A stretch of DNA of 64,000 bases, from NCBI RefSeq assembly GCF_037971845.1, contig NZ_CP150227.1:1426001-1490000 (forward strand). Direction: 5' to 3'. This DNA comes from Paenibacillus sp. FSL R5-0766. GTDB taxonomy: Bacteria > Bacillota > Bacilli > Paenibacillales > Paenibacillaceae. The position numbers and the translations under genes were made by a program. The stretch's first letter is position 1, and every line of letters begins with the position of its first letter. The notes under the pieces are model-generated. The model did no database searches, was not told where the DNA came from, and worked only from the letters and a program-made list of their open reading frames with translations. Shown piece after piece: positions 2-21,606 of the stretch.

Positions 2-523
2 GGCGAGTTTGATTTTGCACAAGGGGAGAAGGTGAAGGAGATCACCTTCTCTTCTTTTTTTCCCAAGAGATTTGATCCGTCCTATTGCATGGATGAAAAA
101 TCTTTTCTAGATCCACGTGTGGCGATGAATGTGTTGAACACCTTTCTGATCTCCAAAAAGCCGCTGCGTTTCATCATTTCAGAGACGGGCGTGAACGTGC
201 CTGTTTTTATTGTTTCGCTTAATTCGAGCTTTCGTGGGGGGGAGACAGGGGATATTTACTTCGACCTTACCCTGCGAACATGGCGGGATTCCAAGGTGGA
301 GAAGGTGGGCTCTGCGGCATCCGGGAGCAAGTCAGGTTCTCGTACCGATTTGAAAAAGAGTAGCAAGACCTACACCGTCAAATCTGGCGACTCCCTGTCC
401 AAAATAGCAAAGCTGGAGCTGGGCAGCAGTTCCAAATGGAACGAGATCTACAAGCTCAACGCAAAGATCATCGGGAGTGATCCGAACCGGATCAAGCCCG
501 GACAAAAGCTGGTGATGCCATGA
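2..523 (+). CDS. xkdP: Tail/baseplate LysM protein, XkdP-like (5' end cut by window edge)
   Basis: The frame is open from the left edge, so the gene starts outside the window; the GTG at 32 is internal. Residues just inside the edge (GEFDFAQGEKVKEITFS) align with the inner part of the complete paralogue at 11430-12125 (LGEINV...KLREVSFSGIF). The last 50 residues are a LysM domain (YTVKSGDSLSKIA ... IKPGQKLVMP), preceded by a Ser/Lys-rich linker. The family (PBSX XkdP) sits at the tail-tube/baseplate junction and is thought to bind peptidoglycan. The stop overlaps the next start as ATGA, which implies translational coupling with the XkdQ-like gene. Confidence 0.85.
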   Translation, partial: GEFDFAQGEKVKEITFSSFFPKRFDPSYCMDEKSFLDPRVAMNVLNTFLISKKPLRFIISETGVNVPVFIVSLNSSFRGGETGDIYFDLTLRTWRDSKVEKVGSAASGSKSGSRTDLKKSSKTYTVKSGDSLSKIAKLELGSSSKWNEIYKLNAKIIGSDPNRIKPGQKLVMP

Positions 524-1506
524 CCTACAAGGTCATTGTCGACGACAAATACGACATCACCAAGCTGGTGGAGACGATTACGCTGAAGGACTCGCTTGAC
601 CAGATTGCCTATCAGGCTAACATCCGGCTGGCGGTGTCTGCATCTTCCGGTCTGCCTTCGATCTCACCGGGTATGGCGGTGCGGATTAGCGGGGTTCCTT
701 TTGGCGAAAAATCCATGGTTCACTTGCTGCATCCTGCGGTCATCTGGGAGGTGGAAAGCTCAAACAGCGGCACCAAGCGGCTATCCCTCACGGTGTACGA
801 CCGGATGATCTATCTGGAAAAATCAGAGGACGAGTTCCTATTGCCGAAGGATCAGACGGCTACGCAACGACTTAAAACCTACGCCAAAGAGTGGAAGATT
901 CCATACGCTACATTGCCAGAAACCAAGACAAAGCTGGGAAAAGCCGTGTATCGGTCACAGACGATTTTTTCGATGATCTTTGCTGATCTGAAGGAAACGG
1001 CGAAGTCAGGCGGGGAGATGTATCATCCACGGATGACACCCGGCGGGCTGCAGCTTTTCCAGGTCGGAAGTAATGCGAAGGTATACGAGCTGGATCGACT
1101 GATTGATCTGACCCAGATGCGTACGCTCGAAGGGGCGGTTACCAAAGTTAAAGTCATGGCAGCGTCGGAGTCTACAAGTGGCAAAGAAGTTCCTTCCAAA
1201 GTGCTCGCGATTGAGCAGGATAATGTGGAAGAACTGGGCACATTGCAAAAGCTGGTCGAGGACGATCAGGTGAAATCGACAACCGCCGCCAAGAAACTGG
1301 CGAAAAGTCATCTGACGGGTATTCAGGAGACCTTTACGATATCCGCACCGGATGTCAATACGATTCGGGCCGGGGACGCGATGTTGTTAAAAGGGCTGAA
1401 GCTAATCGTCATGTCGGTCAGCCGTGATCTATCTGCCGGGCCTGGAACGATGACGTTAGAGCTGGGGACGGCTGAGCTGGTGAAAAGGAGGTATTACCTT
1501 GAATAA
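520..1506 (+). CDS. xkdQ: XkdQ-like baseplate hub protein, module 1
   Basis: This 328-residue protein lies between an XkdP-like LysM protein and a DUF2577 gene, the place XkdQ/YqbQ occupies in PBSX-type contractile tails, where it belongs to the gpD-like hub family at the base of the tube. The N-terminus (VIVDDKYDITKLVETITLKD) is the usual beta-rich hub start, and the C-terminus (IRAGDAMLLKGLKLIVMSVSRDL ... LELGTAELVKRRYYLE) is the typical barrel end. It overlaps the upstream gene by 4 bp and the downstream gene by 8 bp. A divergent paralogue lies at 12139-13149. Role is inferred from family and position. Confidence 0.8.
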   Translation: MTYKVIVDDKYDITKLVETITLKDSLDQIAYQANIRLAVSASSGLPSISPGMAVRISGVPFGEKSMVHLLHPAVIWEVESSNSGTKRLSLTVYDRMIYLEKSEDEFLLPKDQTATQRLKTYAKEWKIPYATLPETKTKLGKAVYRSQTIFSMIFADLKETAKSGGEMYHPRMTPGGLQLFQVGSNAKVYELDRLIDLTQMRTLEGAVTKVKVMAASESTSGKEVPSKVLAIEQDNVEELGTLQKLVEDDQVKSTTAAKKLAKSHLTGIQETFTISAPDVNTIRAGDAMLLKGLKLIVMSVSRDLSAGPGTMTLELGTAELVKRRYYLE

Positions 1507-1909
1507 AGATGATCCGTATGGGCATTTTGCCGACGTCATGCGGGGTGCGATGAGTACACATTCCCGTCAGGCCGTGAGCGGGCTGGGCGCGGTACTTGGC
1601 ACGATGACCTCATCCGGCGTGAAGCTGGATGATTTCAAGCACGAAGTGCAGGATTATCTCGTGGCCGAGTTGCCGGGCACGCTTGGACTGCCGGAGCGCG
1701 AGGCTGCTGGCGCGATTTCCGGTATACCTGACGTGGCAAACGGCGGAACGACGGGCACGGGACGGTTTCTTTTGCAAGAAGAGGAAGTTGAAGAAGCGGT
1801 GTGGTCTCTTGATAAGGGATTAAAAGCGGGAGATCGCGTACTGGCGATGCGGGTGAATGGCGGTAATGACATTGTGGTGCTGTGTAAGGTGGTGAGTGCG
1901 CATGCCTAG
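1499..1909 (+). CDS. xkdR: DUF2577 tail protein, XkdR-like, module 1
   Basis: A 136-residue DUF2577 protein. It starts at a TTG that overlaps the upstream stop; AAAAGGAGG at about 1483-1491 supports it. The C-terminal part (LKAGDRVLAMRVNGGNDIVVLCKVV) matches the ending of its paralogue at 13156-13413 (TVGDHVLLLRVQGGDSFVVLDRLV). The N-terminus is about 50 residues longer than in the paralogue, with a Gly/Thr-rich stretch in the middle. The family always sits between XkdQ and DUF2634 in PBSX-type tails and is a small baseplate component of unsettled function. Confidence 0.8.
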   Translation: MNKDDPYGHFADVMRGAMSTHSRQAVSGLGAVLGTMTSSGVKLDDFKHEVQDYLVAELPGTLGLPEREAAGAISGIPDVANGGTTGTGRFLLQEEEVEEAVWSLDKGLKAGDRVLAMRVNGGNDIVVLCKVVSAHA

Positions 1910-2357
1910 TTTGTTTCCGGAAACGGGAGTGGTATGGGGGGATGAGGAGGATTTGTCGGGGGCGGCTTCGGAAGAGGTACGCTTTGGACGGAGCTGGCGA
2001 TTCGATTACGATGCAGGGGATTTTGTACTGACCCCAAGTGGTAAAGTCGCTGCGGCTGGTGGGCATGAAGCCTGGGTACAGTGGTGCATTAAGGCAGTGA
2101 AAACGCCACGTTACAGACATGTGATCTATTCTCGAAACTATGGTTCGGAGCTGGAGGATCTGGTGGGTCAGGGTGATAGCCGAGGTGTGATGGAAAGTGA
2201 GATTACCCGGATGGTGACGGAAACGTTGCTGGCTGATCCACGCACGGAATCGGTAGACCAGTTCACGTTTGATTGGAATCGGGAGCAGTGCATGTTCTCG
2301 TGTCGGGTGGCGAGTGTGCAGGAAGAGATGTTTATTCTGGAAAGTGAGGTGATCTGA
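1902..2357 (+). CDS. xkdS: DUF2634 tail protein, XkdS-like (gp25-type), module 1
   Basis: A 151-residue DUF2634 protein. ATG 1902 is chosen over GTG 1896 because AAGGTGG at 1887-1893 then has normal spacing. The central part (KAVKTPRYRHVIYSRNYGSELEDL) is the family signature and recurs in the paralogue at 13410-13823 (KALSTRRYEHLIYSSDYGMEW). DUF2634/XkdS corresponds to the gp25-like wedge protein that connects sheath and baseplate in contractile tails. It overlaps the DUF2577 gene by 8 bp and is followed 4 bp later by the baseplate J gene. Confidence 0.82.
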   Translation: MPSLFPETGVVWGDEEDLSGAASEEVRFGRSWRFDYDAGDFVLTPSGKVAAAGGHEAWVQWCIKAVKTPRYRHVIYSRNYGSELEDLVGQGDSRGVMESEITRMVTETLLADPRTESVDQFTFDWNREQCMFSCRVASVQEEMFILESEVI

Positions 2358-2361: not shown

Positions 2362-3501
2362 ATGGCTGAGATTCCGCGTTATTTGGAGGACCAGACGGAG
2401 GAACAGATTATGCAGCGGTTGCTGGATCGTCTGCCCGCGGATCTGGATAAGTCGGAAGGATCGTTTCTGTGGGATGCGGAGGCTCCGGTTGCGTTTATGC
2501 TGTCTGAGGCGGCGTTGTGGGCGCAGGAATTACTGCGGCGAGGGTTTGCAAGTACGGCTGCGAGCAGTGATCCGAATTTTCGTTCGGAAGAGCTGGATCT
2601 GCGGGCGGGAGAGCACGGCATTACTCGACGGGCTGCGGTGGCGGCACAAGGTGCGGTGAGGTTCGTGGGAACGCCGGGTAAAGTGGTGCCTGCTGGAACG
2701 GTCGTAGCTACGCTCGCGGATGAAGTATCTGCTGAAGCTTCGCTCGAATATGAGACGGTAGGACGTGTGGAACTGGATGCTGAGGGCTCCGGTGTGGTAG
2801 GCGTGCGAGCGCTTGTTGCCGGAAAAGAGAGCAATGTGCCTGCGGGCACGGTAACTGTGTTGTCTACACCTGTAAGTGGCGTGACCTCTGTCACGAACGT
2901 TGATGCGATCAAAGGCGGTGCAGATATTGAGGCAGACACGGCGCTGCTGGAACGTTTTTATGCCAAAGTCCGCAACCAAGGGACAAGCGGCAACAAAGCA
3001 CAATATGTGCAATGGGCCAGTGAAGTACCAGGTGTTGGTGCAACGCGTGTGATTCCATTGTGGCAGGGTCCGGGCACGGTGGGATTGTATCTGCTGGACA
3101 CGGACAAACGTGCTGCGGGTACCGATTTGGTAGCCGCCGTGCAGAAGTACGTTGACCCAACGCAGGATGGACAGGGTGAAGGCGTTGCCCCGGCAGGACC
3201 AGTCGTGTCCGTGATGCCAGCCGAGGAAGTGCTGATGAACATTCAGGTGAAGCTGACGCTGGCAAGTGATGCGACATTGGCCGATGTACGGGCATTGATC
3301 GAACGCGGGGTGACCGCGTATTTGAAACAGTTGGCTTTTGCCGATCCACTCGTGCGTTACACCCGCATTGCCGCGATTCTGTTGGACATTCCGCCCATTA
3401 TCGACTATTCGGAGCTTACCGTGAACGGTGTGAGTGACCAGAATATCGAGATGACCGCAAGTCAGGTGGCCGTGCTGGGGACGGTGGAAGTTCATGAGTA
3501 G
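2362..3501 (+). CDS. xkdT: Baseplate J/gp47 wedge protein, XkdT-like, module 1
   Basis: A 379-residue baseplate J/gp47 protein, the wedge subunit around the hub. The N-terminus (QIMQRLLDRLPADLDKSEGS) is the family start. The C-terminal third (DPTQDGQGEGVAPAGP ... LAFADPLVRYTRI ... LDIPPIIDYSEL) is almost the same as in the paralogue at 13816-14874, while the middle differs much more. In module 2 the next gene overlaps this one by ATGA; here an ATG sits in the same place (3494), but the XkdU-like gene only starts 137 bp later. Confidence 0.88.
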   Translation: MAEIPRYLEDQTEEQIMQRLLDRLPADLDKSEGSFLWDAEAPVAFMLSEAALWAQELLRRGFASTAASSDPNFRSEELDLRAGEHGITRRAAVAAQGAVRFVGTPGKVVPAGTVVATLADEVSAEASLEYETVGRVELDAEGSGVVGVRALVAGKESNVPAGTVTVLSTPVSGVTSVTNVDAIKGGADIEADTALLERFYAKVRNQGTSGNKAQYVQWASEVPGVGATRVIPLWQGPGTVGLYLLDTDKRAAGTDLVAAVQKYVDPTQDGQGEGVAPAGPVVSVMPAEEVLMNIQVKLTLASDATLADVRALIERGVTAYLKQLAFADPLVRYTRIAAILLDIPPIIDYSELTVNGVSDQNIEMTASQVAVLGTVEVHE

Positions 3502-3679
3502 TGTTGGGCAGATGGTGGATGAGGAATTAGTTAGGGAGTGCGGAGAGCAAGGAAGATTGGGAGAAATACGCCAATCTGGGTTGGATCTGGTGAGCGAGAC
3601 GCTCCATGATAATATGCAAGGAAGGGAGGGGACAGGGCATGAGTGCTCCTTCTACTGTAGATGTTGGACTGACGAGTGA
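3494..3679 (+). CDS. Possible small ORF between XkdT and XkdU genes (doubtful)
   Basis: A 61-codon frame starts at the ATG that overlaps the stop of the XkdT-like gene, where the XkdU-like gene starts in module 2. It then overlaps the real XkdU-like start at 3639. The translation (MSSVGQMVDEELVRECGEQG ...) resembles nothing I recognise and ends in a Cys-rich stretch produced by the other gene's frame. It may be a chance frame, or a remnant of a displaced 5' end of the XkdU gene. Confidence 0.15.
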   Translation: MSSVGQMVDEELVRECGEQGRLGEIRQSGLDLVSETLHDNMQGREGTGHECSFYCRCWTDE

Positions 3680-4229
3680 GAAAGGGCGGGAGTTGTTCTC
3701 GTATTTGCCCAGGTATTACGAGACTTCGCGTGTGATGCAGGCCGATATGCAGGCCAAAGGCACCGAGATGGATTTGCTGTATCAGGCGCTGGATGAGACG
3801 TTGGAGCAGTTGTTTGTCCGTACAGCGACGTGGGGGCTGGACTTTTGGGAGCAGGAGCTTGGCATTGAGACAGATCGTCTCAAACCTGTGGAGCAGCGCC
3901 GTGCGGTGGTGGAGTCGAAGCTGCGTGGTGCCGGGAAGTTCTCTGGCAGGCTGGTTGCAAATGTGGCTGAGGCGTATGCCGGGGGCAAGGTGGATGTAAG
4001 GTTTCAGCCGGAAGCGTGGAGTTTTACGGTGAGCTTTGTGGATACAATGGGCATCCCGCCCAATATTGACGATCTCAAACGGGCGATTGAAGAATTGAAA
4101 CCGGCCCATATGGCCGTGGAATATGAGTATCGCTATCTGGTGTGGGATGATCTGGACAAGAAGCAGAAAACATGGGACGAACTCGATGCCGCGTCCTTGA
4201 CGTGGAATGAACTGGAGGTGTGGGCGTAA
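3639..4229 (+). CDS. xkdU: DUF2313 baseplate protein, XkdU/YmfQ-like, module 1
   Basis: A 196-residue DUF2313 (YmfQ/XkdU) protein, the gpI-like part that links wedge and fibre. The start at 3639 (MSAPSTVDVG) follows a GGGAGGGG ribosome binding site; the in-frame ATG at 3606 has none. Family signatures: LPRYYETSRVMQA near the N-terminus, a central EQRRAVVESKLRGAGKFSG, and IPPNIDDLKRAIEELKPAHM near the end. The paralogue at 14871-15416 keeps all three. The C-terminal tail carries short W-D/N-E-L repeats (TWDELD, TWNELE), which the paralogue lacks. The fibre gene overlaps its stop (taATG). Confidence 0.85.
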   Translation: MSAPSTVDVGLTSEKGRELFSYLPRYYETSRVMQADMQAKGTEMDLLYQALDETLEQLFVRTATWGLDFWEQELGIETDRLKPVEQRRAVVESKLRGAGKFSGRLVANVAEAYAGGKVDVRFQPEAWSFTVSFVDTMGIPPNIDDLKRAIEELKPAHMAVEYEYRYLVWDDLDKKQKTWDELDAASLTWNELEVWA

Positions 4230-5677
4230 TGCCAAAAGAAACCGATCGACTGAAATTACCTCTTCCCTTGGGGAACGAGAACGTGACCCGGGAAAGTATT
4301 AACGGGATTTTTGAAAAGATTGATGCTGGTGTTGCAACGCAAGCGGATTTGGATGCGCTCCGTGAAGCGGTGAGTCAGATGGATATTCCTGATGCGTCTT
4401 TGACGCAGAAAGGCAAGGTGCAGCTGTCGAGCAAGACGGACGGCACGTCAGAGACGGTGGCGGCAACGGAGAAGGCGGTTTGGGATGCGAAAAATGCTTG
4501 TTTGCTGCGTACAGGCGGAGTTATGACTGGGAGACTAATTATGAATCAATGGGGAACTTTTTCAGGTTCTTCAAATGGATCGGTCTTATACGGAAGTAAT
4601 TGCTTTCTTGAAGGTTCAACATTCAGGTACGAGAACAATCACACTAACCTAGGAGCACGGGGGATTTACATGCGTTACACAGGTGGTGCCGGACCAGAAG
4701 TCTACATGTTTGAGACAGGTCCAGTGGCAACTACAGCTGGAGGAGCATTTACCCCCTCCTTAACAAGAATTGTTAATACGGCTGACTCATGGCAAAAGCA
4801 TCAACTCACAGATGACAATGGTAAAAATAAGCTTACTTCCGGGATAGACCTCAACTCTCTGATGGTAAATGGACAGTATAATGGCAACAATTTAACCAAT
4901 GCTCCGTTACCAGCCACTGCTGATATGTGGTGGTATATAGAGGTCCAGTGTCACACAAATGGTGAGGGATATGTACTTCAAAGAGCGAGTAGACTAAATG
5001 GTGGGACTCCCACCTTATATCTTAGGACAAGAGAGAACGGTGTATGGTCCCCATGGAGTCTTGACGTTTTTCAATCTGGCGTTGATGCAAAAAATAGCAT
5101 TGTGGGTGCCATTAACGCCAAGGGTGGAAGTGCATCCACATCAGATACATGGACGCAGCTTACGGCTAAGATAAATGCTATACAGCAAGGTCATTACCAA
5201 AGTATGGACTTACCTTCGCGATCAGAATACTTTGAGGTTCCTGGTGGTTATGTAGGATCGTTAGGTAACGCAGTCCTAGCTTTTCCTGCGGGGACAAGGG
5301 TAATAAGTTTGATAGCCCCTGTCTATGGTTCTGCTTTCTTGAATGTGTACAACTCCTATGGAGGGCTAAAGACAGCTTTTGCTTTACGGGACTCACAGGG
5401 AGTTATATGGCCGATAACCATACCCGTTGGCACCATTGGGGCGGCTGGAGGGATAGATTTTAGGGTATATAGCGTACAGGTAGATATAGTCAGTGGCTTA
5501 TGCCGGAGCAACGGTTACTCGGTGTCTCAAAACTCCAACTCCTATTGGAGCACAACAAAACCGTCCAATTTTAACGCAGATGGCCCGATGACACTTGTAT
5601 GTGCCTGCATCGAAAATACAACGGTCACAAGGCAAGTATCCTTCACAACATATAACACTAGAGCATTATCGATGTAA
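4229..5677 (+). CDS. Tail fibre with phage-fibre repeat and pyocin-knob domain, module 1
   Basis: ATG 4229 overlaps the upstream TAA and has GGAGG about 10 bp before it; GTG 4220 is an alternative. The 482 residues begin with a conserved adaptor (TDRLKLPLPLGNENVTRESI), then a phage tail-fibre repeat (LTQKGKVQLSSKTDG, about residues 60-90). A region near 215-290 (NGQYNGNNLTNAPL ... WYIEVQCHTN ... WSPWSLDVF) looks like a pyocin-knob attachment domain. The C-terminal 190 residues are Ser/Thr/Asn/Gly-rich and probably bind the receptor. Base composition becomes more AT-rich from about 4500, as is usual for exchanged fibre tips. Confidence 0.8.
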   Translation: MPKETDRLKLPLPLGNENVTRESINGIFEKIDAGVATQADLDALREAVSQMDIPDASLTQKGKVQLSSKTDGTSETVAATEKAVWDAKNACLLRTGGVMTGRLIMNQWGTFSGSSNGSVLYGSNCFLEGSTFRYENNHTNLGARGIYMRYTGGAGPEVYMFETGPVATTAGGAFTPSLTRIVNTADSWQKHQLTDDNGKNKLTSGIDLNSLMVNGQYNGNNLTNAPLPATADMWWYIEVQCHTNGEGYVLQRASRLNGGTPTLYLRTRENGVWSPWSLDVFQSGVDAKNSIVGAINAKGGSASTSDTWTQLTAKINAIQQGHYQSMDLPSRSEYFEVPGGYVGSLGNAVLAFPAGTRVISLIAPVYGSAFLNVYNSYGGLKTAFALRDSQGVIWPITIPVGTIGAAGGIDFRVYSVQVDIVSGLCRSNGYSVSQNSNSYWSTTKPSNFNADGPMTLVCACIENTTVTRQVSFTTYNTRALSM

Positions 5678-6111: not shown

Positions 6112-6543
6112 ATGACCACAAACCAACTAACCACAGCTATCACAAACACGCTAACTCAGTACTTTCCCAACATCCTGATCCAACCTGCAACAGGCGGGAC
6201 AAGCTCCACCTTAGAAACCAAAGGCATCACCTACCGCCTGCTGTCCGCGCAACTTACCCGGGAACGCAGCGACCGCTTCGTGCAATCTCATGCCTATGAA
6301 ATCCGCTGGCTTGACGCAGACAATATCCCGGCAACACTGCCGGACGAACTATTCGAAGCTTTGGAAACCATCGACGTGGAAGGCACACCCTATCGCGCAA
6401 CGGAGATGCGTTGGGAGACGGAGAACGATACTCCGCGAATGCTGGTGTATTATACCATGCGAACCACCAAAGTGTCGGAGTCCGCCGCTACCATGCAACA
6501 ACTGGAACAGCGACCTACCGCACTTAAAGCTACAAGAGAATAA
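6112..6543 (+). CDS. Tail terminator family protein (DUF6838-like), module 2
   Basis: A 143-residue protein starting at ATG 6112 with AAAGGAGGTG just upstream. It resembles the phage tail terminator family (DUF6838) found directly before the sheath gene in PBSX-like tails: YFPNILIQPATGGTSST near the start, then ITYRLLSAQLTRERSDRFVQ and EGTPYRATEMRW. These proteins cap the tube and stop its growth. Its presence as the first gene, with no portal, capsid or terminase before it, is typical of a headless particle. Confidence 0.7.
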   Translation: MTTNQLTTAITNTLTQYFPNILIQPATGGTSSTLETKGITYRLLSAQLTRERSDRFVQSHAYEIRWLDADNIPATLPDELFEALETIDVEGTPYRATEMRWETENDTPRMLVYYTMRTTKVSESAATMQQLEQRPTALKATRE

Positions 6544-6664
6544 CGATATGAGTTTACGTAACGATAGTTATCCTGTCCTTGGAGTGGTCAGTATAGCTTT
6601 TTTTATTGAACTTAAATAACCAAATGAGGGGATCAGTATGAAAGGAATAGGAGGCGCATTGGCA

Positions 6665-6874
6665 ATGTTTACGAAAAAAGAACCGGACCCTAAAAATCCG
6701 GAAGCTCAACAGAAAAACAATCCAAAATACAGCAAAGCACAGTTCGCCGAATCCCGGCAACTTAGCCGGATCGAGAAAGATATTTTGTCAGCAGTTCTGC
6801 TGGAACAACAAACATACACATTGGAAGAAGCACAGCAACACATCCAACAATTTATGAATGGGGAGGCACAATAA
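6665..6874 (+). CDS. Small tail-locus protein of unknown function
   Basis: About 69 residues from ATG 6665 (MFTKKEPDPKNPEAQ), which has AGGAGG at the best spacing; ATG 6638 (78 residues) with GAGGGG before it is possible too. It is charged and probably helical, with a C-terminal part (SRIEKDILSAVLLEQQTYTLEEAQQ) that could form a short coiled coil. Small proteins of this type occur between the tail terminator and sheath genes in related tails. I do not recognise a named family. Its stop overlaps the first base of the sheath start. Confidence 0.6.
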   Translation: MFTKKEPDPKNPEAQQKNNPKYSKAQFAESRQLSRIEKDILSAVLLEQQTYTLEEAQQHIQQFMNGEAQ

Positions 6875-8190
6875 TGGCTGGAGGAACATGGACGACACAA
6901 AACAAGGTACGCCCCGGCGTATATATGAATTTTGCATCAGAGGGCTCATTGCCGGGTACGGTAGGGGAACGGGGAACGGTGGCTTTGGCACTTCCATTGT
7001 CATGGGGACAAGCAGGTACAATCCTGACGGTACAAGCAGGTGAAGATGTACAAGCCAAATTGGGCTATGACTGGACAGCACCGCAATTACTGCTGATCCG
7101 CGAGGCATTGAAACGGGCGCAGACATTGCTTCTGTATCGTCTCAATGCAGGGACCAAAGCCAAGGCAACCTTGGACAATCTGATAGTAACAGCCCAACAC
7201 GGCGGCGTGCGCGGTAATGATCTGGCTGTTGTAATCTCCGCGAATATCAATGATCCGGAACAATTGGATGTCTCCACTCTGCTTGCGGGTAAAGAAGTGG
7301 ACAAACAAACCGCGTCTACTATCGAAGCTCTGGAATCCAACGCATACGTCACATTTACTGGTGAAGGTGCACTCACAGCTACAGCGTCACTTCCACTAAC
7401 AGGTGGATTAGATGGTACAGCAACCAACCAAGAGCATGCTGATTTCCTGACCAAGCTGGAAGTACTGGATTTTAACACGGTTGGTCTGATTTCAGACGAT
7501 GCCACACTCAAATCAGTCTACACAGCTTACATCAAGCGTTTGCGTGATACCGAGGGCAAGAAGGTGCAACTGGTGCTTTCCGATTATCCGGCTGCAGACC
7601 ATGAAGGCATTATCAGTGTCAAAAATGGTGTTGTGCTCGCAGACGGTACCGTTCTTACGCCAAAACAAACCGTAGCATGGACAGCCGGCGCAACAGCGGG
7701 AGCTAACCTGAATGAATCCCTGACGTTCCGTGCGTATGACGATGCCGTGGATGTGAGTGGCAGATTGACACATAGCGAGACAGAAGCGGCATTGCGTAAT
7801 GGCGAGTTTGTGTTTACGGCGAGCAGCAACCGCGCAGTGGTAGAGCAGGACGTGAATACATTCCGTTCCGTTACACCGGATAAGGCACGTCATTTTGCCA
7901 AAAACCGTGTTGTCCGTGTACTCGATGGCATCGCTAATGATATGAAACGTATTTTTGAGTCCTATTACATCGGCAAAGTGAACAACAACGAAGATGGGCG
8001 CAGCCTGTTCCGTTCCCAATGTGTCACTTACCTGAAGCAGCTTCAGGATATTGGGGCCATTCAAAATTTTGATTCCAAAACAGATATCACTGTTGCTCCG
8101 GGCAATGAAACCGATAGTATTCTGATCGAGATTCAAGTCCAACCTGTGGATTCCGTTGAAAAAGTATATATGAAAGTGAAGGTGGTTTAA
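6874..8190 (+). CDS. xkdK: Contractile tail sheath protein, XkdK-like
   Basis: A 438-residue tail sheath protein. The N-terminus (TTQNKVRPGVYMNFASEG) is the typical PBSX/Mu sheath start. Other signatures: GERGTVALALPLSWG, LVLSDYPAADHEGI in the middle, and a C-terminal region (KARHFAKNRVVRVLDGIANDM ... FDSKTDITVAPG) matching the handshake end that links sheath subunits. GGGGAGG precedes ATG 6874. The presence of a sheath makes the particle contractile (R-type), not flexible. Only one sheath gene is visible; module 1 may have its own outside the window. Confidence 0.92.
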   Translation: MAGGTWTTQNKVRPGVYMNFASEGSLPGTVGERGTVALALPLSWGQAGTILTVQAGEDVQAKLGYDWTAPQLLLIREALKRAQTLLLYRLNAGTKAKATLDNLIVTAQHGGVRGNDLAVVISANINDPEQLDVSTLLAGKEVDKQTASTIEALESNAYVTFTGEGALTATASLPLTGGLDGTATNQEHADFLTKLEVLDFNTVGLISDDATLKSVYTAYIKRLRDTEGKKVQLVLSDYPAADHEGIISVKNGVVLADGTVLTPKQTVAWTAGATAGANLNESLTFRAYDDAVDVSGRLTHSETEAALRNGEFVFTASSNRAVVEQDVNTFRSVTPDKARHFAKNRVVRVLDGIANDMKRIFESYYIGKVNNNEDGRSLFRSQCVTYLKQLQDIGAIQNFDSKTDITVAPGNETDSILIEIQVQPVDSVEKVYMKVKVV

Positions 8191-8191: not shown

Positions 8192-8650
8192 ATGGCATTT
8201 TTGAAAGCAAGCGACACAATCTCCGGCCAGGAAGGCCGCGCATACGCAACGATTAACGGACAGACGGAAGAAATGTTCTATGTGAAGACGCTGGAAGCAA
8301 CGGTAGAGAAACAAAAAGCAGAGGTCAAAACTTTGGGGCGCCGCGGCGTACAGCACAAAGCAACCGGTTGGTCCGGTTCAGGCTCCATGACGATCTTTTA
8401 TACCACTTCCCGTTTCCGCGAGCTGATGCTCCAGTACATGCAGAATGGTGTGGACACGTACTTCGACATTGAAGTGACCAACGAAGATCCTTCCTCTACG
8501 ATTGGCAAACAAACCGTGACCCTCAAAGGCGTCAACCTCGACAGTGTGATCATGGCATCCCTTGATACCGAGGCTGAGGCGTTGGAGGAAGAAGTAAGCT
8601 TTACCTTTGAAGATGTCGATATGCCTGTATCGTTCAATTTGCCGAAGTAA
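8192..8650 (+). CDS. xkdM: Tail tube protein, XkdM-like (DUF2001)
   Basis: A 152-residue tail core protein of the XkdM/DUF2001 family. Signatures: MAFLKASDTISGQEGRAYAT start, KTLEATVEKQKAEVKTLGRRG in the middle, and VDMPVSFNLPK at the end. It begins 1 bp after the sheath stop, the usual sheath-tube pair. The tube protein polymerises inside the sheath and forms the channel. It is followed by 172 bp of non-coding DNA with hairpins before the chaperone gene, which could keep tube expression far above that of the chaperone. Confidence 0.9.
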   Translation: MAFLKASDTISGQEGRAYATINGQTEEMFYVKTLEATVEKQKAEVKTLGRRGVQHKATGWSGSGSMTIFYTTSRFRELMLQYMQNGVDTYFDIEVTNEDPSSTIGKQTVTLKGVNLDSVIMASLDTEAEALEEEVSFTFEDVDMPVSFNLPK

Positions 8651-13155: not shown

Positions 13156-13413
13156 ATGATGCTGGACGTGATTAAAAAGGCGGCGGTGGCCGCTGTAGAT
13201 GCCAAGTCTCCCGTTCAGGTAATGTACGGAAGCGTGACAAACACACAGCCTCTGGAGATTACCGTTGAACAACGGTTGGCATTGGCTGAGCCTTTTCTTG
13301 TACTGCCGGAATCCGTAGTGAACAAAGCTTGGACCGTGGGTGACCATGTCTTGTTGTTACGTGTTCAAGGTGGAGACAGCTTTGTTGTACTGGATCGGCT
13401 GGTGAATCCATGA
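13156..13413 (+). CDS. xkdR: DUF2577 tail protein, XkdR-like, module 2
   Basis: An 85-residue DUF2577 protein, the compact form of the family; the module 1 paralogue has 136 residues. Sequence marks are LAEPFLVLPESVV in the middle and TVGDHVLLLRVQGGDSFVVL at the end. ATG 13156 is followed by a second ATG; the ribosome binding site is weak (AAGGTGGTG at about 13138-13146), so coupling with the gene 6 bp upstream is likely. The next gene overlaps the stop by ATGA. Confidence 0.8.
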   Translation: MMLDVIKKAAVAAVDAKSPVQVMYGSVTNTQPLEITVEQRLALAEPFLVLPESVVNKAWTVGDHVLLLRVQGGDSFVVLDRLVNP

Positions 13414-13823
13414 TTCCACAGGGGGCGCAGATTAGCGCAGAAGATCAGGAAGAAGCCGCTGTGCTTCCAAGTCTGACCTATGTGTTTCAAGCTTCGGGAC
13501 AACGAATTGGAAGATTGCAACTGGATGGAAAAGATGCGGTAAAACAGGCGGTGTATAAAGCGTTGTCCACACGCCGCTACGAGCATCTAATCTATTCTTC
13601 GGATTATGGTATGGAATGGTCCTGGGAAGGAATGGCCGGGAGATCCATGGTTGAATCGGAACTGGAACGCTGGATTCGCGAAGCATTGCTTCCGGATGAT
13701 CGCATTTCGGATGTAACCGAGTTCGATTTTGTCCACGAGGCCGATGGAGTGCGTGTGTCTTTTACCGTGGAAACGGATTTTGGCAGCTTTAGGGAAGAGA
13801 CGGAGGTGAACATGGATGTATGA
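13410..13823 (+). CDS. xkdS: DUF2634 tail protein, XkdS-like (gp25-type), module 2
   Basis: A 137-residue DUF2634 protein with the family core KALSTRRYEHLIYSSDYGMEW and an ending (VSFTVETDFGSFREETEV) typical of sheath-contacting wedge proteins. It overlaps the upstream DUF2577 gene by 4 bp and the downstream baseplate J gene by 8 bp, so the whole baseplate set is tightly coupled. About 15 residues shorter at the N-terminus than the module 1 copy. Confidence 0.82.
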   Translation: MIPQGAQISAEDQEEAAVLPSLTYVFQASGQRIGRLQLDGKDAVKQAVYKALSTRRYEHLIYSSDYGMEWSWEGMAGRSMVESELERWIREALLPDDRISDVTEFDFVHEADGVRVSFTVETDFGSFREETEVNMDV

Positions 13824-14874
13824 AGAGCAGACGTTTGAAGTTATTATAAACCGAATGCTGGATAGGGTACCAGATGGTGTGGATAAACGTGAAGGCAGCA
13901 TTATCTATGATGCGCTTGCACCAGCGGCAGTGGAAATGGCTCAGATGTATATCGAGCTGGATGTGAACGCCAATCTGAAGTTTGCGGATACAGCTTCTGG
14001 AGAGTATCTGGATCGCGCAGTGGCTTGGTCTGGCATTAGTCGGAAAGCGGCCACGAAGGCACGTTGGGTTGGCAGTTTTCGGGATAACGAAGGGAAGCCT
14101 GTTGAAGTTCCTTTGGAGAGTCGTTTTTCCACGGGGGATCGGGTGTATGTTGTTGTGGAGCACGTCGAGGTAGGGCGATATGTGTTGGAATGTGAAGTCG
14201 CGGGAGCGGAAGGTAATGAATATACGGGGGCACTGCTACCCATAGATTATATCGCCGGCCTGACGACAGCTGAATTGACACAGTTGCTTGTTCCTGGCGA
14301 AGACGAGGAAACGGATCAGGCCTTATATGATCGTTATCAGGACAAAGTTTCCCGTCCGGTCACGAGTGCGAACAAATATCAATATGAGCTATGGGCACGG
14401 GAAAACTCCGGTGTGGGCAAAGCAAAGGCTTTTCCACTGTGGGACGGTCCGGGTACTGTCAAAGTGGCATTGCTGAATAACGAAATGCAAACACCTGCTG
14501 AGGCGGTCATTGAGGCGGTACAAGAATATATCGATCCAACTCAGGATGGAATGGGCGAAGGTGCTGCTCCAATTGGACCTGTAGTCACAGTAGTGGGAGC
14601 GGAAGAGGTACCTATTGATGTTGAGGTACAGGTCACGCTTGCTTCTGGTTCAACATACGAGGGCGTGAAGACACTGATTGAAACGGGAGTTACGGCGTAT
14701 CTGAAAGAACTGGCTTTTGCCGATCCGTTGGTTCGTTGGACACGTATTGCCAATGTCATTCTGGATATCCCGCCCGTGATCGATTATAGCGATCTGCTGG
14801 TGAATGGTGGTATGTCCAATCTGGAGATCGCCCCCGGCGTAGTAGCCGTTCTTGGGACGGTGAAGGTGACATGA
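13816..14874 (+). CDS. xkdT: Baseplate J/gp47 wedge protein, XkdT-like, module 2
   Basis: A 352-residue baseplate J protein; GGAGGTG at 13802-13808 supports ATG 13816. The N-terminus (VIINRMLDRVPDGVDKREGS) and the C-terminal third (DPTQDGMGEGAAPIGP ... LAFADPLVRWTRI ... LDIPPVIDYSDL) are the family signatures. The middle domain differs clearly from module 1, while the C-terminal third is very close. The stop overlaps the XkdU-like start (ATGA). Confidence 0.9.
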   Translation: MYEEQTFEVIINRMLDRVPDGVDKREGSIIYDALAPAAVEMAQMYIELDVNANLKFADTASGEYLDRAVAWSGISRKAATKARWVGSFRDNEGKPVEVPLESRFSTGDRVYVVVEHVEVGRYVLECEVAGAEGNEYTGALLPIDYIAGLTTAELTQLLVPGEDEETDQALYDRYQDKVSRPVTSANKYQYELWARENSGVGKAKAFPLWDGPGTVKVALLNNEMQTPAEAVIEAVQEYIDPTQDGMGEGAAPIGPVVTVVGAEEVPIDVEVQVTLASGSTYEGVKTLIETGVTAYLKELAFADPLVRWTRIANVILDIPPVIDYSDLLVNGGMSNLEIAPGVVAVLGTVKVT

Positions 14875-15416
14875 ATAAAGCAGAGGTATTAATGACTCTT
14901 TTGCCCCCGTTGTATGAAAATGTGCTGGAGATGCAGCTTCTTACAGAGACCGAAGGTGTAGAACTGGACAAGCTTACGGTGGGTTTGGAAAGTGTGCTGA
15001 ATCAATTCTACCCGGAGTCTGCGACCTGGGCATTAGAACGTTATGAGCAGGATTTGCAGATTCCAACGAACCAAGCCAAGCCAGACGACCAGCGGAGATC
15101 CGTAATCATTTCCAAAATGCGCGGCAGCGGCAAAGTCTCTGGTTCCATGCTCAAAAACGTGGCGCAGGCCTACGAAAGCGGTGGGATTGATGTATCCGTT
15201 GATTCAGGTGAGTACCGCATTATAATCCGCTTCATCGACACATGGGGCTTGCCGCCCAATTTGGACGATCTGAAAGCAGCAATTGAGGATATTAAACCGG
15301 CACATATGACCGTGGACTATCGTCTGCGGTATTTGACGATTGCGGAGGTTGAAAGTATGACGCTGGAGGAGATCGAACAGACCCGACAGGATAAATTTGC
15401 AGGAGGTGGAGCATAG
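14871..15416 (+). CDS. xkdU: DUF2313 baseplate protein, XkdU/YmfQ-like, module 2
   Basis: A 181-residue DUF2313 protein with the same three signatures as module 1: LLPPLYENVLEMQ, DDQRRSVIISKMRGSGKVSG and LPPNLDDLKAAIEDIKPAHM. The start overlaps the baseplate J stop. The C-terminal 30 residues end differently from the module 1 copy, as expected if this end is fitted to its own fibre protein, which begins directly after the stop at 15417. Confidence 0.87.
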   Translation: MNKAEVLMTLLPPLYENVLEMQLLTETEGVELDKLTVGLESVLNQFYPESATWALERYEQDLQIPTNQAKPDDQRRSVIISKMRGSGKVSGSMLKNVAQAYESGGIDVSVDSGEYRIIIRFIDTWGLPPNLDDLKAAIEDIKPAHMTVDYRLRYLTIAEVESMTLEEIEQTRQDKFAGGGA

Positions 15417-17819
15417 ATGAATGAACCAAAAACATCGAATCTTGGTTTGAATAAGATTGACCGTTCTTCACCATCGACAACCTATTTTGATCTGGATAAG
15501 TATTTGGATCAGAACTGGGAGAAGATTGATGAAGGTGTAGGGAAAGTCGTAGAAAAGGCTGAGGAAACCGCGGCACAGGTGAGTAGTATTCAGGAGCGGT
15601 TGGATATAGAGAAGCGGAGATCGGTGACGTTGGAGCCTGGATTGCAAGTTGTTCATGCTGAACGCGCCTCGGCATTTAAGTTGGAAGGGTTGAAGGGACG
15701 TACGCTTGTGAATTTGTTGGGGCGGGATGGTGGGTGTGAATCTATTACGGGATGGACAAAGAGTACTTCAGCAACTATAGAATTGTCCACTGCTAACGTC
15801 AACAGCGGAAGCAACAACTTTAAAGTAACGCAAAGCGAAGCTGCTGGTCAGTCATATGTGAGGACGCCTGCGTCAGCAACTGCAAATGTAAATCCAGCTA
15901 ATTATTATATCGTATTGGCTTGGATTAAAAATGAAACATCTCAATCCTTTTCTGCTCGTCTTGTAACCGCAGATGGAACTTCTGCAATTATCGGTGCAAA
16001 ATCCGGAACAATTTTAGCGGGTGCAACTGGGCTTGTCTGGCACGCGTATAGGCCAACAGAAATGGGCAGCAACACGAAAGCAGATATGGACGTTTACACA
16101 GCCGGATCAGTAGCTGTGGGCGGTGTATATTATGTTGACTCGTTCCGTATTTATGAAATCAGCGCAGCCGAATATGCTGAACTCGACAGCATGACGCCGG
16201 AACAGGTAGCTGCTAAGTTCCCGTACATCGATAGCGTTCAACCCGTGCGAAATCTGTATGTGATCCGTTATGGGAATAATCTACTGCCGCCGTTCTATGA
16301 GTGGGCGTTACCTACAGGAGCAATCATTAATGCACCCTACAACTTTACGTATCATTACGCGTCAGGAACAGTTGCCTATAATACGGTGGATTTAATGACT
16401 ATACCGGGACAAAGGTACACTTTATCAGTGAACAATAGTGTTGCAAATGCTCGAAATGTTATGAATTTCTATGACGCAAACGGAACAAAGATAGATGGAA
16501 CTACCGTAAGTGGAACCACCACTCCGGTAAGTGCTGGAGTTAATACCGTTACGTTTCAAGCTCCCGTAAGGGCAGAAACAATGCGCATGTACTTATACGG
16601 TAATCCGTCTGAAAGCGGGACAGCGTCTTTCTCAAATCCGATGCTTGTCATCGGCAACGTAGCCAAACCGTTCAAAACACGTGAAGACGCCATGCTCGCG
16701 TTGCAAACTGATCTGTTCGCTGATCCAGTAACAGGGACGAATGCTGACGAAGTATTCGAGAAGGATGGGACATACTTCAAACTTGCAAAGTGGAAGAGGG
16801 TGGTATTGGACGAGAATAAAGCTTGGCTACTACAGTCTTCTGTTGCAGGTTATAAAATTCTTGCAATAAAATCATTCCCACCAACAACAAACTGGAACGG
16901 TTTTTTACTGACTAAATTTAATGGAAATGTCCTTTCATCCAAAGAAAGTTTAACAGAAGGAGACAAGGCACACTTTAACACGGCATCAGGATACACAGAC
17001 TTTTATATTTCAATCATTAACACAGACAGTGGATGGGGAGACTCATACACACCGACAGCCGACGAGATTAAGGCGTATTTCATGGGATGGACAATGTTCA
17101 ACGGATCGGCGGGTAATGGTGTGGGCAATAGTCCTGATGCGCCTGCAAATAATGTATACAACAGTATAGGAACAAAATGGTGGGCACGGCGATCCGATGG
17201 AGTAACACGTACTTGGGCAGATGCTACTATTACATTGCCTACGACTCAAGCGCCAAACTGGACACCGTATCAACTGGTCTATCAGCTTGCAATGCCGACT
17301 GTCGAACCTGTCACGTCAGAGGGACAATTGACGTTAATCGAGGGTGATAACCAGGTAGAGGTAGGAACGGGTATTGTGTTGCGTGAGGGTGTTAAGCCTG
17401 CACAAGGAAGTAACGGAGACTGGGGTATCAATATTGTAAGCAGTTCAGTTAATGCTCCATTAAAAAACAAAGTTGCTCAAATGATGAGAATTTATAGAAA
17501 CTCGTTGGCTGACAACGATTGGAGCATTGTAACACGTACGGACGGGTCGGCTTACGGCAATCAACGCGCTTCAACGAGCAACGCAACTTATGGTCTTTCT
17601 GCATCCTACAGTGTCACATACCTGATGCTGGACTCGTCTCCGACAGTTCCATTCATTGGATCAGTAGCGGACAACGAAAAGGCGTTGCTTACGGATCTGA
17701 CGGAAGTCGTACAACAAAGTGCAGCGCGTGTATCCGTGACGGAGACGTCGTTAAACGATGCTATACGTGAGCTGCTGCAACAAAAAAATAAACGAAATGT
17801 TTGGGGGCCGATTGAATAA
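15417..17819 (+). CDS. Large tail fibre / receptor-binding protein, module 2
   Basis: An 800-residue protein starting 1 bp after the XkdU stop, with AGGAGGTGG upstream. The N-terminus (NEPKTSNLGLNKIDRSSPST) is an adaptor seen in Bacillales fibres, followed by a coiled coil (about residues 35-70). Residues about 100-240 form a carbohydrate-binding-like beta sandwich (GRDGGCESITGWTKS ... YVDSFRIYEISAAEYAE); a second similar unit follows near 300-420. The end (VTETSLNDAIRELLQQKNKR) is a short helix. It is not related to the module 1 fibre, so the two modules probably bind different surfaces. Confidence 0.75.
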   Translation: MNEPKTSNLGLNKIDRSSPSTTYFDLDKYLDQNWEKIDEGVGKVVEKAEETAAQVSSIQERLDIEKRRSVTLEPGLQVVHAERASAFKLEGLKGRTLVNLLGRDGGCESITGWTKSTSATIELSTANVNSGSNNFKVTQSEAAGQSYVRTPASATANVNPANYYIVLAWIKNETSQSFSARLVTADGTSAIIGAKSGTILAGATGLVWHAYRPTEMGSNTKADMDVYTAGSVAVGGVYYVDSFRIYEISAAEYAELDSMTPEQVAAKFPYIDSVQPVRNLYVIRYGNNLLPPFYEWALPTGAIINAPYNFTYHYASGTVAYNTVDLMTIPGQRYTLSVNNSVANARNVMNFYDANGTKIDGTTVSGTTTPVSAGVNTVTFQAPVRAETMRMYLYGNPSESGTASFSNPMLVIGNVAKPFKTREDAMLALQTDLFADPVTGTNADEVFEKDGTYFKLAKWKRVVLDENKAWLLQSSVAGYKILAIKSFPPTTNWNGFLLTKFNGNVLSSKESLTEGDKAHFNTASGYTDFYISIINTDSGWGDSYTPTADEIKAYFMGWTMFNGSAGNGVGNSPDAPANNVYNSIGTKWWARRSDGVTRTWADATITLPTTQAPNWTPYQLVYQLAMPTVEPVTSEGQLTLIEGDNQVEVGTGIVLREGVKPAQGSNGDWGINIVSSSVNAPLKNKVAQMMRIYRNSLADNDWSIVTRTDGSAYGNQRASTSNATYGLSASYSVTYLMLDSSPTVPFIGSVADNEKALLTDLTEVVQQSAARVSVTETSLNDAIRELLQQKNKRNVWGPIE

Positions 17820-19773: not shown

Positions 19774-20274
19774 ATGGAAAGATGGGACACCCTATGGAAA
19801 TGGGGAATTGCACTCATGAGCAGCTCAGTAACCTACTTCTTCGGAGGATGGTCAGGCGTACTCGGCGTACTTCTCGTGTTCGTCATCCTCGATTACCTAA
19901 CCGGCATCGCGGCGGCGGGTATGAGTGGCAAGTTAGAAAGTAATGTTGGCATGTTCGGCATCGCAAGAAAGGTATTTATTTTTGCAATGGTATCGGTGGC
20001 TCATCTGGTGGATGGTGTTCTGGGAGACGGACATTTGTTCAGGGATGCGGTCGCCTTTTTTTATATCGCAAATGAGTTGTTGTCCATTATCGAGAATGGA
20101 GGCAAGTTGGGCGCTCCCATTCCTCCAGTGATCCGGCAAGCGATTGAAGTGCTCAAGGGCAAAGGGGGAACCGGGGAACTCCCCGGTAACTTCTCCCCAA
20201 GTGCCAAAAATTCTTTTTCACAGGCAGATCCGGATGACATAGATTCACCGACAACAGAAGATAACGTTAAGTAG
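19774..20274 (+). CDS. Phage holin (TcdE/phi-Cp-type, holin 4 family)
   Basis: A 166-residue membrane protein with AAAGGAGGTG before ATG 19774. Family signature GVLLVFVILDYLTGIAAAGM and a further segment (GIARKVFIFAMVSVAHLVDGV ... FFYIANELLSIIENGGKLG) place it in phage holin family 4 (TcdE, BhlA-related). Three to four membrane segments lie in residues 10-110; the last 45 residues are polar. It should form lesions in the membrane so the endolysin two genes on can reach the wall. There is no endolysin gene directly behind it; a repeat element lies between. Confidence 0.88.
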   Translation: MERWDTLWKWGIALMSSSVTYFFGGWSGVLGVLLVFVILDYLTGIAAAGMSGKLESNVGMFGIARKVFIFAMVSVAHLVDGVLGDGHLFRDAVAFFYIANELLSIIENGGKLGAPIPPVIRQAIEVLKGKGGTGELPGNFSPSAKNSFSQADPDDIDSPTTEDNVK

Positions 20275-20658
20275 CGTTTAATATTGCGAGTATATAGTTA
20301 TATTGAACGTTTGTTGATTAGTACGAATGTCAGATTAAACAGAACTAATCTAAATAAGCAAAGCTATATAAGGCCGCTATACAGATTGAACTTAACATTT
20401 TCACACAATAACGGAGAGGACAGAAAAAACCTGAAAAAGCGAAGCGGTCGCCTTTATCCCCGGATTTTCCCCTTTAGAAAAGGAAATAAAAAAATCTGGG
20501 GATAACAGCGATTGGAAGGTTATTCTGTCATCGGAGTCTCCGTGTGAACAAGCCTCAGTTCATTTCCCAACATCAGGGACACGCACACAAGCAACCCCTA
20601 ATCCAACCGCATTAACTATATACAAACGGCAATTTGCCGCATAAAGGGTGTGAGAAAC
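20275..20658 (+). other. 384-bp gap between holin and endolysin genes
   Basis: The gap holds one copy of the dispersed repeat (20386-20548). The rest is AT-rich. A 73-codon frame at 20284-20505 is just the translation of the repeat (its basic Lys/Arg stretch recurs in other copies). AAAGGGTG at 20643-20650 is the ribosome binding site of the endolysin. I see no confident promoter. Confidence 0.5.
20386..20548 (+). repeat. Dispersed intergenic repeat, copy A
   Basis: Shares with copies B-D the order: GAAGCG(A/G)-type GC motif, TCGCCTTTAT, a hairpin with CCCCGGATTTTCC on one side and AAAAAATCTGGGG on the other, then GATAACAGCGAT. Copies A and D also share 5' (GAACTTAAC-like, GAGGACAGAA) and 3' (GGAAGGTTATTCTGTCATCG) flanks, forming one subtype. 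Confidence 0.8.
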
Positions 20659-21606
20659 ATGCAAACGAGAAGTTCGGGCAACACACAGGGCATTGACGTC
20701 TCACGATACCAGGGCAATATTGACTGGGCCAAGGTGAAGGCAAGTGGCATGACATTTGTATTCATCAAGGCAACTGAGGGACAGACATACACCGATCCAA
20801 ATTACCAGAAAAATGTAACCGGCGCACTGGCGGCGGGCTTGCTGGTGGGAACGTATCACTTCTTCCGCGCGACATCTACCGATGGTGCCAAGGCAGAAGC
20901 GGTGCATTATGCCAACACACTTAACAAAGTTGGGGGCGCCAAGGCGTTACAACTGCCACCCGTCATGGACTACGAGAACAACCCCGGCAACCTGAGCAAA
21001 GCGCAGATGAATACAGTTGCCAAAGCTTTTTTAACCGAATTACAACGTCTGACAGGTGTGAAACCGATCATATACACGGGCAATTCATTTGCCGGGAATT
21101 TTGACACATCACTCAGCTCATACGATCTGTGGATCGCGCGCTACAGCAACACCCGTGTACCGGACGACCAGCCGGCATGGAAGCGTTGGACGTTCTGGCA
21201 GTATACGGATTCAGGCAAGGTGAATGGCATTAGTGGCAACGTGGATATGAATGAATTCGAGGGAACAGCGGCACAGCTTAGAGCAAGATACGCAGCAGCC
21301 ACTCCGAAACCACCGGAGCCATCCAATCCAACGAATCCAAGTCATCCGAATCCACCAACTGAACCACCCAAAGGGGGCGAACCGATGACAGCCGAAGAGA
21401 AAGCAGCGTTTGATGCGCTCAAATCCCAGGTCGACAAACTACAGGCGCGTCAGCAAATGGAAGTTCCAGTATGGGCAAAGGCAGCTGTGGATGCAGCACT
21501 GGCATATGACACCAAAAATCCATTGTTCAGCATCGATAATGGGGCGAGTTATGATTTTTACCGTTTTATTACCGTGATGCATCGCAGAGGTTTGTTTAAA
21601 AAGTGA
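20659..21606 (+). CDS. Endolysin: GH25 lysozyme with C-terminal domain
   Basis: A 315-residue GH25 muramidase; ATG 20659 is preferred to GTG 20650 for its spacing to AAAGGGTG. The catalytic residues of the family are present: D13 in GIDVSRYQG, and D104/E106 in PVMDYENNPG; the domain ends near 215. A Pro/Asn-rich linker (SNPTNPSHPNPPTEPPKGG) leads to a C-terminal domain with a short helix (DALKSQVDKLQARQQ) and VWAKAAVDAALAYDTKNPLF, which probably binds the wall. There is no signal peptide, so release through the holin is expected. Last gene of the tail locus; a terminator follows. Confidence 0.93.
   Translation: MQTRSSGNTQGIDVSRYQGNIDWAKVKASGMTFVFIKATEGQTYTDPNYQKNVTGALAAGLLVGTYHFFRATSTDGAKAEAVHYANTLNKVGGAKALQLPPVMDYENNPGNLSKAQMNTVAKAFLTELQRLTGVKPIIYTGNSFAGNFDTSLSSYDLWIARYSNTRVPDDQPAWKRWTFWQYTDSGKVNGISGNVDMNEFEGTAAQLRARYAAATPKPPEPSNPTNPSHPNPPTEPPKGGEPMTAEEKAAFDALKSQVDKLQARQQMEVPVWAKAAVDAALAYDTKNPLFSIDNGASYDFYRFITVMHRRGLFKK

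Follow-up and report, generated by a model that had tools for sequence, protein, structure and literature searches.

Two sets of contractile tail genes at one locus

The window, i.e. the whole stretch of 64,000 nucleotides analysed here (G000:C1:1426001-1490000 of the single-contig, 7.0-Mb genome of Paenibacillus sp. FSL R5-0766), begins inside a locus that encodes two contractile tails and one lysis cassette. Plain numbers below are window positions; L003 and L004 denote the stretches used for coordinates left of and across the left window edge, respectively.

Module 1 (tail 1) is cut by the left window edge. Its left-hand genes (L003:13585-19834) encode a protein of 322 residues in the terminator position (L003:13585-14553), a small protein of 68 residues (L003:14950-15156), the sheath of 487 residues (L003:15156-16619), the tube (L003:16842-17249), the chaperone (L003:17544-17978) and a protein of 557 residues (L003:18161-19834) that is called a tape measure from its position, its PHROG matches being mixed. 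The sheath gene has its start 4.8 kb outside the window, on the left, and its product shows 37% identity to the module 2 sheath in the search that compared them. The part inside the window (2-5677, plus strand) runs from an XkdP-like LysM protein (2..523, cut by the edge; full gene L004:1855-2523) through a YqbQ/XkdQ hub (520..1506, PF24032), a protein in the XkdR position (1499..1909; phrog_2403/579 only, no Pfam match), the sheath initiator XkdS (1896..2357, PF10934), the baseplate J protein XkdT (2362..3501, PF04865) and the Gp48-like XkdU (3606..4229, PF10076) to a tail fibre (4220..5677, PF03406) that is hypervariable past its first part.

Module 2 (tail 2) occupies 6112-19506, likewise on the plus strand. 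It comprises a tail terminator (6112..6543, PF20765), a small protein ahead of the sheath (6638..6874, phrog_966), the sheath (6874..8190, PF04984/PF17481/PF17482/PF22671), a DUF2001 tube (8192..8650, PF09393), an XkdN-like assembly chaperone (8757..9245, PF08890), a tape measure of 660 residues (9447..11429, phrog_1068), an XkdP-like LysM protein (11430..12125, PF01476), a YqbQ/XkdQ hub (12139..13149, PF24032), a DUF2577 XkdR (13156..13413, PF10844), the sheath initiator XkdS (13410..13823, PF10934), the baseplate J protein XkdT (13816..14874, PF04865), the Gp48-like XkdU (14871..15416, PF10076) and a main fibre of 800 residues (15417..17819, phrog_13022/6613/2929). Three variable genes linked to the fibre follow (17819-18427, 18428-19042 and 19099-19506); among the 13 tandem relatives used for comparison, half or more have no counterpart of them.

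The lysis cassette, also on the plus strand, consists of a holin (19774..20274, PF05105 and TIGR01593) and a GH25 endolysin (20650..21606, PF01183). A terminator-like hairpin on the plus strand lies just 5' of the holin (19701-19722) and might delay lysis relative to tail synthesis. On the left, ImmA (L003:2039-2455) and XRE (L003:2498-3007) control genes on the minus strand are followed by an ArpU gene on the plus strand (L003:3866-4348), whose product matches the family of late regulators with 76 bits against a cut-off of 43.1. A promoter element (L003:13401-13422) and a structured leader RNA (L003:13420-13523) precede module 1. The locus is flanked by a 5'-nucleotidase gene on the left and by a gene for an OppA-type binding protein on the right.

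Both modules are full contractile sets with sheath, tube, tape measure, baseplate and fibre, and the locus has its own holin and GH25 lysin, as in R-type tailocins. Comparisons of the two modules showed 28-46% identity wherever BLASTP gives an alignment, the baseplate proteins T (43%) and U (46%) being the most alike. BLASTP gave no useful match between the modules for terminator, hub Q or tape measure, although both Q proteins match PF24032. The duplication of one tail into two is ruled out by this low identity. The tape measure is longer in tail 2 than in tail 1 in all 14 clusters that carry both tails in tandem, and particles of two lengths are therefore expected.

No portal, capsid, terminase or integrase family was found among the locus proteins scanned (G000:1406001-1450000, some short open reading frames excluded). 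Across the whole 7-Mb genome, TerL_ATPase, Phage_portal, Terminase_3 and SPP1_portal gave no match, capsid families not being part of that genome-wide search; the same four families matched 3, 4, 3 and 2 of 14 control genomes, respectively. The lack of head and integrase families among the scanned locus proteins, together with the absence of the four packaging families from the genome, rules out an ordinary prophage. The first-pass annotation of the window had proposed two headless contractile tails with one lysis cassette, which agrees with the locus and left flank as read here, and the gene classes that it named are all present, by family matches, where it had placed them. It had also raised two possibilities for the DNA beyond the left edge: a second set of sheath, tube and tape measure, which proved to be there as the complete module 1, and head genes with an integrase, which were looked for and not found.

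One slot with interchangeable tails

Thirty-four clusters chosen by hand were read, 30 from the 65 tail-bearing genomes of the genus and 4 from two other genera. The order read in them is ImmA/XRE/ArpU control genes, tail or tails, holin, GH25 lysin and OppA, in one chromosomal slot across three genera. The control and lysis genes are constant, and the slot is filled by a type 1 tail (17 clusters), by both tails (14) or by a type 2 tail (3, namely G043 of the genus and G160 and G210 of the two other genera). In the clade of this genome, eight or nine genes lie between the control genes and tail 1, the last large one encoding a DUF4127 protein. In a distant species group of the genus (sheath identity ~70%, five clusters read), and likewise in G115 and G239 of two other genera, the control genes adjoin tail 1, indicating that they belong to the locus.

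Of the 17 clusters with tail 1 only, 16 have holin and lysin behind that tail, and the remaining one (G239) gave a partial lysin match only. Among the 12 tandem clusters fetched to the end, holin and lysin stand behind tail 2 in 11, of which G041 has holins behind each tail; in the twelfth, G010, the holin sits between the tails. G021 retains scraps of tail 2 between two holins. From these arrangements, tail 2 appears to be gained and lost as a unit, perhaps through recombination between holin copies. As a separate observation, a second XkdU-like gene with a small protein and a fibre follows the first fibre set of the same tail in G062 (L075:7070-9378), and a second XkdU copy is also found in G026 and G013, i.e. 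in three of the five clusters read of that group.

A count over 74 genomes of the genus, with orthologues defined by at least 69% identity for the tail 1 sheath and at least 84% for the tail 2 sheath, gave a tail 1 sheath in 64 genomes (63 in one open frame, one split) and a tail 2 sheath in 28 (27 in one frame, one split). Thirty-seven genomes have tail 1 only, 27 have both, one has tail 2 only and nine have neither. Both sheaths lie on the same contig in all 27 two-tail genomes, with starts 10.6-13.3 kb apart. An ArpU orthologue (at least 67% identity) occurs in 65 of the 74 genomes, exactly those with a tail, and in none of the nine without; two of the tail-less genomes (G014 and G044) have more distant ArpU matches. 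The comparison with related strains suggested earlier shows the slot kept in most genomes of the genus with one or two tails. Some genomes hold further tails of type 2 outside this locus.

Selection on the sheaths and variability of the fibres

The sheaths of both tails are under strong purifying selection. The ratio of nonsynonymous to synonymous substitution rates (dN/dS) of the tail 1 sheath has a median of 0.044 (range 0.019-0.085, 434 of 435 pairs, from the 30 best-scoring of the 64 orthologues). The tail 2 sheath shows a similar median of 0.046 (range 0.018-0.095) among its 27 intact orthologues, with 300 of 351 pairs used and 50 saturated.

Residue retention was compared with this genome as the reference in 23 clade members for tail 1 and 13 for tail 2. 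The median fractions of residues kept in tail 1 and tail 2 are 0.98 and 1.00 for the tube, 0.92 and 0.97 for the sheath, 0.46 and 0.57 for the tape measure, and 0.23 and 0.45 for the fibre. The comparison shows the predicted structural proteins to be conserved and the predicted fibres and tape measures to be variable.

A putative late promoter in front of the first tail

A 22-bp element with a TATTAT hexamer lies ~165-350 nucleotides before the first tail 1 gene in all 31 clusters that contain tail 1, in a scan that allowed up to six mismatches and gave five stray matches elsewhere at four to six mismatches. The element also stands before tail 2 in G043 and G160, and the same scan did not find it before tail 2 in G210. 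No copy precedes tail 2 in 13 of the 14 tandem clusters; in the other, G010, a degenerate copy with six mismatches, the level of the stray matches, has flanks that resemble the leader region. A different second promoter before tail 2 was sought in this clade by shared words, and only ribosome-binding-site and low-frequency words proved common. A weak consensus scan found no terminator-like site on the plus strand between tails 1 and 2. The absence of both a second promoter copy and such a site suggests read-through from tail 1 into tail 2.

The 18-bp core of the element has two perfect sites in the whole 7-Mb genome, before tail 1 and before the DUF4127 gene, and one site with two mismatches; the core written backwards, used as a control pattern, has one match. 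A search of public collections located the exact element in 30 stretches of GTDB genomes, every one titled Paenibacillus, and the core in 61 stretches of IMG/VR. The next recognised gene in these 91 stretches is the start of tail 1 in 74 (10 of them also with the DUF4127 copy), the start of tail 2 in eight, DUF4127 alone in two and DUF4127 followed by a cut in three. Four stretches have no recognised gene: two end within ~180 nucleotides, one match lies inside a reading frame and the last is L252. In L252, a viral contig without genes of this cluster, the core lies directly behind a gene for a RinA-family phage regulator (L252:11172-11644, NCBIfam), a position that would suit a late promoter of a phage. 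The 22-bp element is accordingly read as a putative late promoter of phage type. The IMG/VR viral contigs with the promoter (L209-L269) are in many cases ~13-17 kb or 25-29 kb long, and a tail gene is almost always the first one recognised after the promoter.

This clade is represented by 25 clusters, and 24 of them have a second promoter copy before DUF4127. DUF4127 is a widespread Paenibacillus protein; in this genome its gene (L003:10996-12846) has a promoter and leader copy in front (L003:10855-10957), so that leader copies flank it on both sides. In G043, which has no tail 1, tail 2 is preceded by two promoter-leader copies that enclose a DUF3238 protein and a 158-residue protein on the opposite strand (L072:14300-15940). 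No paper linking ArpU, a late promoter and antitermination was found in the literature searched.

A structured leader RNA

The leader before tail 1 makes up the first ~105 nucleotides of the presumed transcript and consists of an outer helix enclosing two hairpins, one small and one GC-rich and followed by a U run, the latter an intrinsic terminator by its shape. The outer helix is closed by a 3' strand positioned after the terminator and could therefore form only in read-through transcripts.

A covariance model built from 11 clade sequences was matched to the cluster loci and gave 60 matches (56 distinct rows, including the 11 model sequences). In these, 88.7% of 1681 cells pair, compared with 80.0% in shuffles and 25-39% when the alignment is slid. 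Both sides have changed in 26 of the 31 pairs, a covariation reached by none of 500 shuffles. This count (A5) left out L089, two matches in L135, L137:8639 and an antisense match in L080, and kept two weak g5 matches (L173 and L174), in whose 3-kb loci no tail gene was recognised. Of the 91 promoter stretches, 33 were given to the model, and 17 match and 16 do not. The 17 new matches comprise 13 distinct rows, all of them outside the set that the model was built from; they pair in 85.5% of cells and change on both sides in 23 of the 31 pairs, with the outermost seven pairs intact in every row. Both alignments were fitted to the model and hence lean towards it, and two inner helices are only 66-76% paired. 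When the leaders were aligned by sequence only (A1, 24 rows), the consensus fold was poor, with six pairs. The strand energies of 15 chosen leaders average -20.1 kcal/mol with their own strand compared with -13.4 kcal/mol with foreign ones; the own strand ranks first in six of the 15 and within the best five in 14.

Under strict filters, which make the count a lower bound, at least 26 leader matches occur in 196 genomes of the family (21 in this genus, three in g7 and two weak ones in g5). No Rfam family fits the leader; two matches at chance level (E up to 1) lie elsewhere in the stretch, and five further loci gave one PreQ1 riboswitch at the gathering threshold, far from the leader.

The stretches in which tail 2 comes first argue against a uniform element. 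Only one of the eight (L262) matches the full model, and a run with the filters off, made for seven of the eight, gave the same outcome. Single-sequence folds showed that the seven non-matching loci keep the outer helix and the first hairpin and miss the terminator hairpin with its U run, as does the G160 leader. The tail 1 leader of this genome is likewise a weaker copy, with a z-score of -2.1, 6 of 200 shuffles folding as well and its own partner ranking only ninth of the 15, while its DUF4127 copy has a z-score of -4.6. That the terminator is missing before type 2 tails argues for an importance of the outer helix by itself.

The predicted structure fits a role in attenuation, antitermination or 5'-end protection. 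A more specific proposal is possible but doubtful: the leader would serve specifically to control a tailocin operon whose tails can be exchanged, with a core of outer helix and small hairpin before both tail types. Before type 1 tails, the terminator would stop the polymerase at ~70 nucleotides unless it is licensed through 28 kb, and the outer helix, closed after read-through, would protect the message or the elongation complex. The promoter and leader together would act as a docking repeat that brings DUF4127 and the G043 DUF3238 gene under tailocin control. If true, tailocin control would gain its first described RNA element.

A probable domesticated tailocin slot and its alternatives

The locus is very probably an R-type tailocin slot that has been domesticated and fixed in the chromosome and that holds two different contractile tails. 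Its fixed place in the host chromosome, the lack of an integrase family among the scanned proteins and its maintenance by selection are those of a tailocin, and its products would most likely be two protein weapons against related bacteria. Stress would inactivate the XRE repressor via the ImmA protease, and the ArpU-type regulator would then drive the late promoter. The polymerase would pass the leader terminator and read ~28 kb, from tail 1 through tail 2 to the holin and lysin. Bursting of the cell would then set free two tails that differ in length, and each would be directed by its fibre to other strains and kill them by puncture.

Both tails are phage-derived. The nearest sheaths in the phage collection are that of BalMu-1 for tail 1 (34% identity) and those of Brevibacillus phages such as Jimmer1 for tail 2 (~52%). 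Among the 196 family genomes, sheaths of the tail 1 type (at least 54% identity) occur in six other genera, and eight of these loci were read. G115 and G239 have the slot, and G154, G157, G196 and G219 have an ArpU-like or sigma-region-4 protein directly upstream instead of head genes.

Several observations weigh against the tailocin slot or against the control proposed for it. Head genes lie upstream of the tail 1-type sheath in the other two of the eight loci: G180 (L086:1-10500) has a terminase and a portal above the cut-off and a capsid match just below it, and G089 (L093:6800-17889) has a portal. These loci are possibly relatives of the tail 1 ancestor. The sheath frame is split in G070 (tail 1) and G053 (tail 2). 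Direct LexA control was rejected: a scan of 16 sequences with the strict LexA consensus gave scattered 9/10 matches, one of them in the window inside the module 1 baseplate J gene, but no box of 9/10 or better in L003, where the XRE and ArpU genes of this genome lie. As there is no good LexA box, SOS control is assumed to act through XRE and ImmA. It is possible that tail 2 is driven by an ordinary promoter of its own.

The head-bearing relatives of tail 1, the two split frames and the tail 2 remnant between two holins in G021 would suit two decaying, functionless prophage remnants that lie side by side by chance, as would the phage origin of the tails. The median dN/dS values of 0.044 and 0.046, the unbroken frames of 63 of the 64 tail 1 and 27 of the 28 tail 2 sheath orthologues, and the single slot across three genera with conserved control genes and leader make such a decay very improbable.

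An extracellular contractile injection system that delivers effectors, rather than a puncture weapon, would share the contractile tail genes, and the variable genes after the tail 2 fibre have no assigned function in Pfam or NCBIfam. However, no AAA ATPase, effector, spike or PAAR family of Pfam, as expected of the Afp/PVC type, was found among the cluster proteins scanned (some small open reading frames excluded), and there is no recognisable toxin cargo. A weak match of the lysin to a PHROG named ATPase is taken as an accident of naming. The lysis cassette and the phage-type control are tailocin traits, and an injection system is given very little weight.

The first-pass annotation had also considered a single particle type with two exchangeable sets of baseplate and fibre proteins. 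The similarity of T and U between the modules is greatest exactly in the baseplate, and the G062 tail carries a second XkdU-fibre set. However, neither module depends on the other for a sheath, tube, chaperone, tape measure or terminator gene, BLASTP does not match the hub Q or the tape measure of one module to that of the other, and either module occurs alone in relatives, so that this option finds no support and is hardly credible. Finally, that the tails are kept as donors for the heads of another phage, a helper or transfer role for which the intact phage-like terminator and chaperone genes could speak, is barely conceivable, given that none of the four tested terminase and portal families occurs anywhere in the genome.

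Comparison with known systems

The phage lambda late promoter P-R' is followed by an early terminator, which is overcome by Q antitermination to express a long late operon. The tailocin slot resembles it in having a regulated late promoter, a terminator at once and then a very long late operon; the terminator here differs in lying inside a covarying outer helix that is closed by downstream sequence. The structured leader makes it testable how a lethal 28-kb operon is silenced and then transcribed in full.

The tail gene order and the homology from XkdK to XkdU are shared with the PBSX-like particles of Bacillus and Brevibacillus, in the accessible portions of PMC8347963 and PMC9406221. The Bacillus pumilus particle described there has a capsid and packages host DNA, whereas no head genes were found here: the capsid and terminase genes that characterise a PBSX-like defective phage were not detected at the locus, nor were the four packaging families in the genome. 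Diffocin of Clostridioides difficile (PMC6088184, available portion) is likewise a headless contractile tail of R-type from a Gram-positive host. The sheath core domain is common to both (8v3t/6gkw matches), with only part of the sheath aligning. Diffocin, however, has one tail in a cluster of 25 genes, and its sheath chains have 354-356 residues compared with 438 and 487 here. Clostridium beijerinckii also carries two R-type tailocins in several genomes of this Gram-positive species, but these are, according to the part of PMC10538166 consulted, separate elements, two in number, that begin with a resolvase or integrase and include a head gene module, in contrast to the single shared control and lysis slot here.

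No description of this Paenibacillus locus was found in the literature searched, which lay mostly outside subscription journals. The tailocins in the sections of the literature examined are mostly Gram-negative; here a whole Gram-positive genus appears to keep the slot in most of its genomes. Judged by its genes, the locus is very probably a tailocin slot with one or two tails under shared control and lysis, and the leader RNA is its most novel part. The second tail, apparently gained and lost whole, and the fast-changing fibres form a natural experiment on the growth of a tailocin arsenal, and the tails are candidates for narrow-spectrum killing of relatives.

The closest counterpart is the double R-tailocin cluster of Pseudomonas protegens CHA0 at the mutS-cinA hotspot under PrtR control, as described in the accessible text of PMC7815802. 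The earlier statement that no well-described Paenibacillus system of this kind is known thus stands within the literature searched, whereas the layout of two tailocins with shared lysis is not new, being known from this Pseudomonas strain. Both loci, as far as that text goes, occupy a fixed chromosomal hotspot and hold two distinct R-type tails of apparently independent origin, with tape measures of unequal length, a single set of lysis genes and strain-variable fibres. One tail is present in all genomes selected there and others are limited to subgroups, which is a further likeness. In contrast to CHA0, the host here is Gram-positive, the tails are of PBSX/XkdK type, the lysin belongs to GH25, and the slot runs from ImmA/XRE/ArpU to OppA rather than from mutS to cinA with PrtR, neither of which marks the Paenibacillus slot. 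The structured leader RNA with its terminator goes unmentioned in the part of PMC7815802 consulted. The locus matches that of CHA0 in function, not in place, control genes or tail family.

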